Assembly (NCBI GenBank): GCA_003221515.1
Contig: QHSI01000106.1
Span: forward strand, 62,001 to 126,000
Length of the DNA stretch: 64,000 bases
DNA from: Candidatus Rokuibacteriota bacterium
GTDB taxonomy: Bacteria > Methylomirabilota > Methylomirabilia > Rokubacteriales > CSP1-6
Reading direction: 5' to 3'
The notes beneath the pieces were generated by a model. It saw only the letters and a program-made list of their open reading frames with translations, was not told where the DNA came from and did no database searches. This document shows, piece by piece, positions 1,714 to 14,541 of the stretch; within the stretch, counting starts at the first letter, position 1; every line of letters begins with the position of its first letter. The position numbers and the translations under genes were made by a program.

Positions 1714-3801
1714 TCAGACCTTGGCGGGCGCGCGGCGGTCGAAGTGCTGTCGGACCAGCAGCTCCAGGGAGCGGAAATGGCGCTCCGGCAGGTTCTTGAA
1801 GCGCCGGCGGCAGGCGACGATCGCCTCATCCGCCGATTCGAATCGCTCGATCGCCCGGAGCAGGTGCTCGTGGTATTCGCGGAGCTTCAGCTCCACGGTG
1901 GGGCCGAGGACCGCGTCGCCGGCCAGGGCCAGCGCCGCCCTGGTCCGGTCGCCGCCCGAATCGACCAACGCCCGAAAGCCCAGCCCCTTGAGCCGCTGGG
2001 TAACCGTGCTCCGGTCCCATCCGAGCGCCCGCGCTGTCGCCTGCATGTCGAAGCCGTGCTGTCGGAGGGATGCCAGCACCGCGGTATCGCCGCCCGGGTC
2101 GTCCCGCGTCGGCTCGTCCGAGGGCAGGCGAAGGTCGTCGACGGCGATGGTTGTGCCGTCGGCGAGGGCGACGGCCTGGCGGAGGCAGTTCTGGAGCTCC
2201 CGGACGTTGCCGCGCCACTCCCCGCGCTCGAGCGCGGCAAGCGCTGCCTCGGTCAGCTCTCGATGAGGTCGCCCGAGCTCGGTCGCGGCGTCGCGCGCGA
2301 AACGCGCTGCCAGCAGAGGGACGTCCGGCCGTCGCTCGCGGAGGGGAGGCAGTCGCAGCACGAGCCCCTTCAGCCGGAAATAGAGATCCTCGCGGAACCA
2401 TCCCTCGGTGATTCCGGCTTCGAGGTCCCGGTTGCTCGCCGCGACCACTCGCACGTTCACCGTGGTCGGCCGCGTCGCCCCGACTCGGTAGAAGCTCTTG
2501 TCCTGGAGCACTCGCAGGAGCTTGCTCTGATGCTCCGGACGCAGCTCGCCCACTTCGTCGAGGAAGATCGTTCCCTGGCCCGCCTGCTCGAAGAGCCCCT
2601 TGCGGTCGGCAATCGCGCCGGTGAAGCTTCCCCTGACGTGGCCGAACAGCTCGCTCTCGAAGAGCTCCGGAGAGATCGCGGCCATGTTCACGGCGACGAA
2701 GGGCCCATCGGCTCGTGGGCTCAGGTGATGGGCGGCTCGCGCGAACAGCTCCTTGCCGGTCCCGGGCTCGCCCGCGATCAGGATCGGCAGCGTCGATCTC
2801 GCCGCCTTCTCGAGGTCCCGGAACACCGCCAGCACGACCCGGTCGCGGGTGACGATCCCCATCCGCTCGCACTCGCTTCGTAGCCGCTCGAGCTCGGCGT
2901 CGTCGAGCGGTGCGACTCGGCCATCGCCGAGAGTCCGCGACTCGCGCTCCAGCCGCTCGAGTCGGGCACGCGTCTGCTCTTCCTGCGCGCGGGCGGTCGC
3001 GAGCTGCGCCCGCAACGCTTCCTCGGCCCCGGTCGAGCGCGCGGCCGCGGCGCGCGCCGCGTCGAGATCCTCCTCGAGGCTCTCCACCGAGGATTCCTGG
3101 CTGACCAGCGCCTGCCGGATCGCGGCAATCTCGCCCTCGAGACGGCCGATGCGGCTCGAGGAGGTGAAGTGGTTCCACACCAGCGCGGCGGCCGAGGAGA
3201 CGAGGAGGGCCAGCAGCGGCGTCGCGAGCGGCAGCAGGAATCCCGCGAGCGAGGCCGAGAGCGTCAGGCCCGCCAGATACGCCAGCACGAGGGCGCCGAC
3301 GGCGATCGAGGCCTTCCACGACCGGAGCGACAGCCAGAGCCACGTCGTCAGCACGGCGAGGACCGCGGTGCCGAGCATGGTCGACGCGATCGACGTCTCT
3401 CTGAGCCACGAGCGGGTCAGCGCTGCGTTGAGCAGGTGCGCCTGGATCATGGTCTCCGACATCGGGCCGAGCGGCGTCCGCTCCAGGCGGGCCGCGGGCT
3501 CGACGAGGAGCAGCACGATCCGATCCTCGACCATGGTCTGGAGCGCCGTCTGGAGCGCCTCGGCGCGCCGCTCCTCGATCGCCGCCCATACCTCGCTGAG
3601 CGGGACGACCTTGAGTCCGGCCGTGGCGAAGCCGATCACCGCTCGTCCCCGCCGGTCGAGGGGAATCCTGTCGAGCCCGGTTTTCCTGAACGTCGCGGCC
3701 AGCGCCACGCCGAGCGCAGGTACGCCCCGATCGCCGACTCGGACCAGGAGCGGTGCCCTCCGCACGACGCCGTCCGGATCCGGGAGGGCCAGCGTGGGGG
3801 C
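1714..3801 (-). CDS. CHASE2/sigma-54 activator, C-terminal part (AAA+ and HTH), after a frameshift
   Basis: This is the main body of a membrane-bound bacterial enhancer-binding protein. From its N-side it carries the end of the CHASE2 domain, three close transmembrane segments, a long coiled coil, and a sigma-54 AAA+ domain with Walker A 'GEPGTGKE', the sigma-54 contact loop as GSFTGA and Walker B 'GTIFLDEVGEL'. A Fis-type helix-turn-helix ('ATARALGWDRSTVTQRL') and about 70 extra residues follow. The CHASE2 start is in another frame (ORF from 4220). Frames meet at the C5 run (GGGGG at 3796-3800), where one base change restores 'PTLALPDPDGVVRRAPLL'. This is either a real inactivation or an assembly homopolymer error. 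The protein would sense a periplasmic signal and activate sigma-54 promoters directly, without a separate kinase. Confidence 0.85.
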   Translation of the reverse strand, partial: APTLALPDPDGVVRRAPLLVRVGDRGVPALGVALAATFRKTGLDRIPLDRRGRAVIGFATAGLKVVPLSEVWAAIEERRAEALQTALQTMVEDRIVLLLVEPAARLERTPLGPMSETMIQAHLLNAALTRSWLRETSIASTMLGTAVLAVLTTWLWLSLRSWKASIAVGALVLAYLAGLTLSASLAGFLLPLATPLLALLVSSAAALVWNHFTSSSRIGRLEGEIAAIRQALVSQESSVESLEEDLDAARAAAARSTGAEEALRAQLATARAQEEQTRARLERLERESRTLGDGRVAPLDDAELERLRSECERMGIVTRDRVVLAVFRDLEKAARSTLPILIAGEPGTGKELFARAAHHLSPRADGPFVAVNMAAISPELFESELFGHVRGSFTGAIADRKGLFEQAGQGTIFLDEVGELRPEHQSKLLRVLQDKSFYRVGATRPTTVNVRVVAASNRDLEAGITEGWFREDLYFRLKGLVLRLPPLRERRPDVPLLAARFARDAATELGRPHRELTEAALAALERGEWRGNVRELQNCLRQAVALADGTTIAVDDLRLPSDEPTRDDPGGDTAVLASLRQHGFDMQATARALGWDRSTVTQRLKGLGFRALVDSGGDRTRAALALAGDAVLGPTVELKLREYHEHLLRAIERFESADEAIVACRRRFKNLPERHFRSLELLVRQHFDRRAPAKV

Positions 3802-4220
3802 GCCGTATTGTCGCGGCGAGCGCCATCGGTGATCTCGAGCGCCAGCGGGAACACGACGTTATCGGCCAGCGCGGTGGCCTGGCTCAACAGCGCGTCGCTC
3901 GACGCGCCGCCGCGGCCCGGCGTGCTTGGCCGTCCGATCTGGACGTCGACACCGACGACCGCCGCGCCGGCGCGCGACAGGCTCGTGATCAGGCGCGAGA
4001 GGACGGCGCGGTCCCACGGGCCGGAGCCGAACCTGGCCTCGCTCGCCGCGTCGCGAGCCACGACGACCAGCTCGGAGCTCACCGGCGCGGGCCGGCGAAG
4101 CCAGCGATCGTAGACGGACCATTCGAGCCCGGCGATCGCGGGACCGCTGCCGGCCCAGACGCCCATCGCCGCGAGAGCGGAGCCGAGTCCGATCACCGCG
4201 GCGGAGGCGAGCGTCCTCAT
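3636..4220 (-). CDS. CHASE2 sensor domain, N-terminal fragment of the sigma-54 activator
   Basis: The ORF starts at ATG 4220 with a signal-anchor helix (about residues 5-32), then 'SVYDRWLRRP', 'VVVARDAASEARFG' and 'AAVVGVDVQIGR', the characteristic start of an extracellular CHASE2 domain. After about residue 140 the translated sequence turns into shadow (Arg/Ser-rich) because the frame is lost near 3800; the continuation is the AAA+ ORF ending at 1714. CHASE2 is usually joined to kinases or cyclases, so the fusion to a sigma-54 activator is noteworthy. It lies 15 bp after the TPR lipoprotein, suggesting co-transcription. Confidence 0.75.
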   Translation of the reverse strand: MRTLASAAVIGLGSALAAMGVWAGSGPAIAGLEWSVYDRWLRRPAPVSSELVVVARDAASEARFGSGPWDRAVLSRLITSLSRAGAAVVGVDVQIGRPSTPGRGGASSDALLSQATALADNVVFPLALEITDGARRDNTAPPRWPSRIRTASCGGHRSWSESAIGAYLRSAWRWPRRSGKPGSTGFPSTGGDER

Positions 4221-13032: not shown

Positions 13033-13302
13033 TCAGCTCGTGCGTTGATACCCGGCGCTTGTCATGCAGCTGCTGAACACGGCCGCCTGACGCGATTCCT
13101 GGACCGCGAGACGACCGACATCGAGGAGCCCGCCCAGGATCAGGTCGGGGCCCGACCCGATCTCGAGGGCTTTTCGGGCGCACTCGACCTCGACGACCGT
13201 CACTTCCTGCACCATGGCGCCGGGCTTCTGCCACTCGGTGCCAGCCAGATCGAGGGTGCAACCAGCGAGCAGCAGGGTCAGCGGGACGATCGCGCGTCTC
13301 AT
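13033..13302 (-). CDS. Small lipoprotein of unknown function
   Basis: This 89-residue protein starts at ATG 13302 with an ideal TTGGAGGACC ribosome site. It has a short signal with lipobox 'LTLLLAGC' (Cys at 15). The mature part has two further Cys ('VEVECARK', 'VFSSCMTSAGY') that could form a disulfide, and a Gly-rich middle. It is followed three bases later by the DUF748 gene, suggesting a shared envelope role. No family is recognised. Confidence 0.75.
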   Translation of the reverse strand: MRRAIVPLTLLLAGCTLDLAGTEWQKPGAMVQEVTVVEVECARKALEIGSGPDLILGGLLDVGRLAVQESRQAAVFSSCMTSAGYQRTS

Positions 13303-13434
13303 GGGTCCTCCAATCGAAGCGGGTACGAGGATACTACAGCGCCCGATCGGGCAGCCCGGCACCGCCCATCGGGCGCTCTGCCCTGTGCCGTGAGTTCCAG
13401 GCTCACGAAACCGTGATTTTTGGCCGCGCGTTGA

Positions 13435-13449
13435 TGGCACGGATCCTGC
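13435..13449 (+). promoter_or_regulatory. Sigma-54 (-24/-12) promoter
   Basis: TGGCACG-GATC-CTGC fits the sigma-54 consensus TGGCACG-N4-TTGC with one mismatch. GG lies at 13436-13437 and GC at 13448-13449, the required 12-base step. The predicted start is near 13460, leaving a short leader with GAGGAGGA before ATG 13479. The window also encodes a sigma-54 activator. Confidence 0.7.
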
Positions 13450-13478
13450 CTTTAAACCGCCGTCGAGGAGGACGAACG

Positions 13479-13646
13479 ATGACACTGGATACCGTGATCG
13501 CGTACGCGGCCGTGCTCGGCCTGCCGCTCTGGCTGGTCGTCGAAGAGGTCCTCCAACGGTTCGCTCCCGGCGCCAAGGCGCCGGTCGTTGCGCCTGTGGC
13601 ATCGGAGGGCGAACGGCGCGCCCCCGCAGGCGCGCAGACGGCCTAG
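13479..13646 (+). CDS. Small single-span membrane protein
   Basis: This 55-residue protein starts at ATG 13479, seven bases after GAGGAGGA. An N-terminal hydrophobic helix ('VIAYAAVLGLPLWLVVEEVL') is followed by a short, basic Ala/Pro-rich tail. No family is recognised. Expression appears to depend on the sigma-54 promoter just upstream, which argues that this is a real, regulated gene. The tail has the look of a membrane-tethered adaptor, which is inference. Confidence 0.7.
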   Translation: MTLDTVIAYAAVLGLPLWLVVEEVLQRFAPGAKAPVVAPVASEGERRAPAGAQTA

Positions 13647-14100: not shown

Positions 14101-14541
14101 ATGCTCAACGAGTTCAAGACGTTCATCGCGCGCGGCAACGTGGTCGATCTCGCGGTCGGGGTGATCATGGGCGCGAGCTTCGGCGGCATCGTCACCTCGC
14201 TCGTCAACGACGTCGTGATGCCACCGATCGGCCGACTGCTCGGGGGCGTGGACTTCAAGGATTTCTTCCTGAGTCTGTCGAGCCAATCCTTTCCCACGCT
14301 CGCTGCCGCGAAGGCGGCCGGCGCGCCGACGCTCAACTACGGCGTGTTCTTCAACACGCTGATCAACTTCATCATCGTGGCGTTCGCGGTCTTCCTGCTC
14401 GTGCGCCAGGTGAACCATCTGCTCCCCAAACCGGCGGCCCCGGCCGCTCCGGTGACGAAGGAGTGCGTGTGGTGTGCGACCACGATTCCGGCCGCCGCGA
14501 AGCGTTGCCCGCACTGCACCTCGAATCTGGCGTCGGCCTGA
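14101..14541 (+). CDS. mscL: Large-conductance mechanosensitive channel with C-terminal zinc ribbon
   Basis: This 146-residue protein starts after GGAGG. The N-terminal amphipathic helix and first pore helix ('[20 protein letters not shown]') and second helix ('[19 protein letters not shown]') are classical MscL. MscL opens under membrane tension to release solutes in hypo-osmotic shock. The usual cytoplasmic helical bundle is replaced by a short Pro/Ala linker and a CxxC...CxxC zinc ribbon ('[18 protein letters not shown]'), which could make gating redox- or metal-responsive. Confidence 0.93.

Follow-up and report, generated by a model that had tools for sequence, protein, structure and literature searches.

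A conserved sigma-54 promoter with paired putative activator sites upstream of a tiny, predicted single-span membrane protein in Candidatus Rokuibacteriota

In the 64,000-nucleotide stretch of DNA analyzed here (the window), a sigma-54 promoter precedes the gene for a 55-residue protein, termed class A, and comparison with related genomes supports the view that this promoter drives a tiny single-span membrane protein in an rpoN-bearing genome. Promoter and protein alike are, on this comparative evidence, genuine and conserved: the promoter and the paired sites upstream of it are kept among relatives, the open reading frame (ORF) is coding, and the same array of activator sites and -24/-12 element stands in front of a second tiny family (class B) and other genes. 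We consider it fairly probable that the promoter is enhancer-dependent and controls class A, with a pair of NtrC-type kinase and activator, encoded outside the window (G000:C10), as its likely activator.

The source genome (G000), that of an uncultured soil bacterium, comprises 5.1 Mb in 191 contigs, and among named assemblies it is closest to those of Candidatus Rokuibacteriota. The comparison set consisted of 57 family genomes, 9 of them from the same genus, and the single-sequence search for class A covered 99 relatives, 42 of them outside the family. The class A profile A1 gave matches at E 0.01 in 26 of the 57 family genomes. A total of 22 were counted, namely 20 at E 5.4e-16 or better together with G033 and G015, which both carry the promoter; G010, G013, G021, and G040 were left out of the count.

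The -24/-12 element and the class A protein

The -24/-12 element, TGGCACGGATCCTGC, lies on the forward strand at 13435–13449 and reads TGGCACG-N4-CTGC. The GG-N10-GC spacing is kept, with GG and GC 10 bp apart in a TGGCAC-N5-TTGC context, and the single mismatch is a departure from TTGC (CTGC; C for T). The ribosome site GAGGAGG was located at 13465–13471 (forward strand), and the sequence predicts a transcription start near 13461. These findings bore out a sequence-only reading, which had placed a sigma-54 promoter of exact -24/-12 spacing and a ribosome site just before a 55-residue single-span protein. That reading had also tied the promoter to the presence of rpoN, and one sigma-54 gene was indeed found in the genome (PF04552, E 7.9e-61). 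Its product carries an ARRTVAKYR box. In addition, the sigma-54 activator domain gave 31 matches in the source genome.

The class A gene spans 13479–13646 on the forward strand and encodes 55 residues with one predicted membrane helix (residues 2–28) and a variable tail, as judged from homologues, the coding test, and an AlphaFold model. The profile search detected class A in all 9 genus genomes and in 22 of the 57 family genomes, and the single-sequence search gave no match at E 0.01 in the 42 genomes outside the family (best 0.016). Across 27 codons in the 9 genus genomes, the mean pN was 0.17 and the mean pS was 0.35, with pN below pS in 33 of 36 genome pairs; the signal of purifying selection was absent in the other two frames of the ORF in the same genomes. 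The AlphaFold model consists of one helix, residues 2–28, and a low-confidence tail (mean pLDDT 72). A hydrophobic stretch was found in 20/20 homologues, with a mean Kyte–Doolittle value of 1.5–2.4 across 19 residues, and we infer that class A inserts into the membrane. In the profile, P16 and L19 are invariant, and W18 and E22 are nearly so. No Pfam family was found for class A, and among the NCBIfam models one homologue had a weak, non-significant match to a Thivi_2564-type model. Kinship with PspB, an idea that arose from the LP[IL]WL stretch in class A, gained no support from profiles: when 20 class A proteins were searched against Pfam at E 10, PspB was not among the matches. A hairpin right after the class A stop codon in the window was not conserved in the genus.

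Two readings would deprive the element of its role at class A. The window contains a single copy of the exact pattern TGGCACG-N4-CTGC where 0.05 would be expected, which by itself is modest evidence, and the genome scan proposed in the sequence-only reading was uninformative when taken alone: the looser TGGCAYN5YTGC gave 55 matches genome-wide, fewer than the 99 of the reversed control. A lone consensus match therefore says little in this genome, and the count would suit a coincidental match in G+C-rich DNA. Conservation contradicts coincidence, which we regard as scarcely credible. Among the 20 strong class A homologues, which had been found by protein similarity, TGG[CT]A[CT]N7GC lay within 110 nt of the start in 19 (G029 being the sole exception), whereas windows drawn at random from these loci had it in 0.4% of cases and Markov-shuffled upstreams in 0.6%; the two added homologues, in G033 and G015, carry it as well. 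Moreover, the columns TGGCA..GC were 100% identical in a 10-sequence upstream alignment amid variable flanks, the preceding 30 nt averaging 58% and the following 13 nt 45%. We therefore accepted TGGCACGGATCCTGC as real and beyond chance, this conservation having been decisive. The other reading concerns a divergent small lipoprotein-like gene (13033–13302, reverse strand; from locus reading, without a Pfam match), which has a common intergenic region with class A. The conserved sites might mainly serve this gene or a repressor, the small ORF being a bystander, and in the genus they do sit between two divergent genes. However, the -24/-12 element points at class A and in most loci keeps an almost constant spacing from the class A start; in genomes whose lipoprotein gene is not adjacent, the element is still found with class A. 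Given also that the class A ORF is under purifying selection, we judge the bystander reading very improbable.

Putative activator sites and other genes behind the array

Comparison of class A upstreams revealed two putative activator sites. The distal one is the palindrome GCCCGATCGGGC at 13341–13352, with its TCGGGC half at 13347–13352, and the proximal one is TCGGGC-N5-GCCC at 13369–13385, 66 bp 5′ of the -24 box. Of 20 class A upstreams, 12 contain paired TCGGGC halves 20–23 bp apart (about two helical turns). Likewise, TCGGGC lay 66–70 bp from the TGG of the -24 box in 12/20 and was missing there in 8/20, and the seven columns ATCGGGC showed 98.6% identity over 10 upstreams. G002 keeps the pair, with about three helical turns deleted. 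Repeated conserved sites at a helically consistent upstream distance, as expected of an enhancer, are thus found, although 8 of the 20 upstreams are without sites there.

Between the activator sites and the promoter, an IHF-like site, CGAAACCGTGATT, is located at 13406–13418 (forward strand), with 2 mismatches to YAANNNNTTGATW, which we take to be the IHF consensus. As a group feature, YAANNNNTTGATW with at most 2 mismatches was present in 27 of 47 kept array promoters (28 of 58 when none was dropped) versus approximately 9% of shuffles, and in the kept promoters it lay mostly 28–31 nt 5′ of the -24 box. The best IHF alpha score was 98.5 bits against an NCBIfam cut-off of 120.25, and HU/IHF-like proteins are present.

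The array pattern TCGGGCRN4RCC-N42-66-TGGYAYN7GC gave 58 matches in the 57 genomes versus 27 for the reversed control, and about half of the 58 may be chance; 11 matches, in coding frames or with no plausible start, were dropped by eye to leave 47. Total match lengths fell into two peaks one helical turn apart (35 at 82–86, 15 at 91–95, and 1 at 87–90), a bunching that would follow from a need for activator and polymerase to face each other across a DNA loop. Furthermore, a promoter profile built from 31 array promoters, using sequence only, was run on the 57 genomes. In the source genome, the window promoter was the one strong match (E 2.8e-8), but it was a training member; all other matches there were weaker than E 0.0018. 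The profile also matched the promoters of non-training class A genes in G015, G019, G026, G043, G051, and G056. As predicted from these motifs, the TCGGGC sites, the IHF-like site, and the -24/-12 element correspond to the enhancer, the bend, and the promoter of the textbook sigma-54 arrangement, an architecture that is known.

Class B, the second tiny family behind the same array, is the most frequent other target in the relatives. Its members are about 50 residues long, acidic, and soluble, with no membrane stretch and the consensus MxMDLWYDLAxREL, and no Pfam family was found for the members scanned. Class B profile matches were obtained in 27 of 57 genomes, the source genome included; 25 genomes were used for co-occurrence (G010 and G045 were left out) and 24 loci for the promoter check. 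In the source genome, the class B gene lies at G000:C102:36487-36618 (L261), with CGGCACG-N4-GTGC and TCGGGC-like sites upstream. The core GG[CT]A[CT]N7GC was found 5′ of 23 of the 24 loci versus 4.6% of random windows; the start positions in G032 and G004 were misplaced, and core presence alone was used there. Because the class B profile had been built from promoter matches, the fair test is provided by those loci that were identified solely from the protein (G000, G002, G003, G004, G007, G040, and G043), and the core was present in 6 of these 7.

Other genes downstream of the array encode a degenerate receiver protein and proteins that are exported. The leaders of class B genes (e.g., L230, L231, and L232), roughly 60 nt long, look unusually conserved between genomes and may be structured. 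In L133 (G003:C531), an ORF of 26 residues, with a single hydrophobic stretch, lies from about 2110 on behind an enhancer/sigma-54 array and is possibly an even smaller membrane protein. At 1501–1530 of L056 (G000:C75), TGGCACCCCGGCTGC lies just 5′ of a presumably FIST-like gene and immediately 3′ of a further gene for a sigma-54 activator; the upstream site at this locus differs from the TCGGGC array.

Candidate activators of the array

The NtrC-type activator is encoded outside the window at G000:C10:91175-92533, and the gene pair spans about 88.6–92.5 kb. The activator consists of receiver, sigma-54 AAA, and Fis domains, and its partner is an 848-residue soluble histidine kinase of GAF/GAF/PAS organization. 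AtoC is the best NCBIfam model for this activator, with which it has the receiver, sigma-54 AAA, and Fis domains in common (AtoC/NtrC-type); identity with the AtoC equivalog was rejected at 428.9 bits against a cut-off of 714. The orthologous group was found in 41 of 57 genomes, at 669 bits and up versus 438 and down for paralogues. Of the 26 loci read, 8 have TCGGGC-N5-GCC and a -24/-12 element no more than 260 nt downstream of the activator gene, where about 0.001 would be expected by chance in 41 downstream stretches of 200 bp; 6 of these 8 loci had been chosen for pattern matches, and of 20 chosen as activator loci, 2 were positive. None of the 8 genus loci read has an array after the operon, and two of them show a -24/-12-like match without the site. 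Of the 8 loci with an array after the operon, 7 gave a match to the degenerate receiver gene. A degenerate receiver protein starting ...VIDQDR was noticed behind the operon-following array in L139, L148, L118, L127, L189, and L192.

The sequence-only reading had named as candidate regulator the window's own membrane-bound activator, a sigma-54 activator (1714–4220, reverse strand; from domain matches and locus comparison) that we take to be CHASE2-like and that carries a GSFTGA loop. The N-terminal part, which starts near 4220, lies in a different frame from the remainder, whereas genus relatives have one open frame of about 880–1010 codons; the break is either an assembly error or real. That this protein regulates the same promoter is a reading we consider unlikely. 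In its favor, it is encoded 6–10 kb from class A in 7 of the 9 genus genomes and tracks both class A (15/22 vs. 12/35, p 0.016, kinship ignored) and the strong promoters, i.e., matches at E 1e-6 or better (21/30 vs. 6/27, p 0.0005, kinship ignored). The NtrC-type activator likewise accompanies the strong promoters (27/30 vs. 14/27 of the other genomes, p 0.0025) but does not track class A (18/22 with and 23/35 without class A, p 0.24), in tests that also ignore kinship; G004 (820 contigs) has class A and a perfect site, yet neither activator was found in it. Co-occurrence, which is confounded by kinship for the CHASE2-like protein, thus lends support to both activators and does not settle the choice between them. 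Against the CHASE2-like protein, its gene is missing from 9 of 30 strong-promoter genomes, including G010, G015, G018, G024, and G031, which are 92–100% complete. In addition, the enhancer–promoter pattern was not found within 2 kb of any of 27 CHASE2-like copies, and in all 8 non-genus class A genomes that have the gene it is on other contigs, some of them short. Its reading frame is, moreover, interrupted in the window. Although co-occurrence fits it about equally well, the proposal that the window's activator is the regulator was thus not supported. The NtrC-type pair at G000:C10 is favored because strong promoters occur in near-complete genomes without the CHASE2 gene and because the array adjoins 8 of 26 of its loci and 0 of 27 CHASE2-like copies, and it is likely the best candidate, as far as genome comparison indicates.

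Neighboring genes, known systems and implications

A gene at 14101–14541 (forward strand; from locus reading), whose product we take from its sequence to be MscL, has counterparts near class A in 12 of the 22 class A genomes: all 9 genus genomes and G011, G032, and G033, with a gene order that differs between genera. In G029 and G039, only the neighboring hydrolase-like fragment lies close to class A, and in the other 8 genomes neither this fragment nor mscL does. The proximity could mean that class A and the channel are functionally linked, or that both belong to an ancient common locus. It is the only functional hint for class A, in which the sequence-only reading had seen a possible stress effector. 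Our tentative guess is that class A acts in the membrane as an adaptor for, or a modulator of, an envelope protein, MscL being a possible partner.

In the mechanism that we propose, the phosphorylated NtrC-type activator would bind the two TCGGGC sites at 13341–13385, and an IHF or HU-like protein would bend the DNA at 13406–13418, so that the activator could meet the sigma-54 polymerase at 13435–13449. Transcription would begin near 13461, and the 55-residue class A protein would be made and would insert as one helix.

Two known systems resemble this arrangement. The PspF-controlled psp genes have a sigma-54 promoter, activator sites, IHF, and small single-span membrane products, among them PspB with LP[IL]WL, and class A resembles them in its promoter, with putative activator sites and an IHF-like site, and in the type of product; in contrast, the favored activator here is a receiver-type protein, and class A has no PspB profile match. 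In E. coli, IHF takes part in the control of glmY. The gene is described as controlled by GlrKR/QseEF with sigma-54 and upstream activator sites (PMC6075780). Common to both systems are an NtrC-type two-component activator, upstream sites, a sigma-54 promoter, and a small product, whereas the product here is a tiny protein and the site is TCGGGC-N5-GCCCGA.

The literature search found nothing joining Rokubacteria or Methylomirabilota with sigma-54, nothing on sigma-54 with a small membrane protein and an enhancer binding protein, and, for mscL, rpoN, and small proteins, one unrelated report. By term search, PMC12316311 makes no mention of Rokubacteria, Methylomirabilota, or IHF, and PMC5712423 has one passage on two-component kinases and none on sigma or RpoN. 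We found no earlier account of the protein families, their activator site, or the candidate regulator in the literature searched, and regard all of these as new leads.

It is possible, though we propose it only tentatively, that one NtrC-type system and sigma-54 are largely devoted to tiny proteins, namely class A, class B, and the degenerate receiver protein. If this is true, the three may together feed back on signaling or act on the envelope. A promoter guess made from raw sequence was largely settled by comparison, and the common promoter architecture can be used to find further targets. For an uncultured phylum, there is now a sigma-54 switch that is defined and can be tested, along with its predicted activator site and two tiny-protein families.
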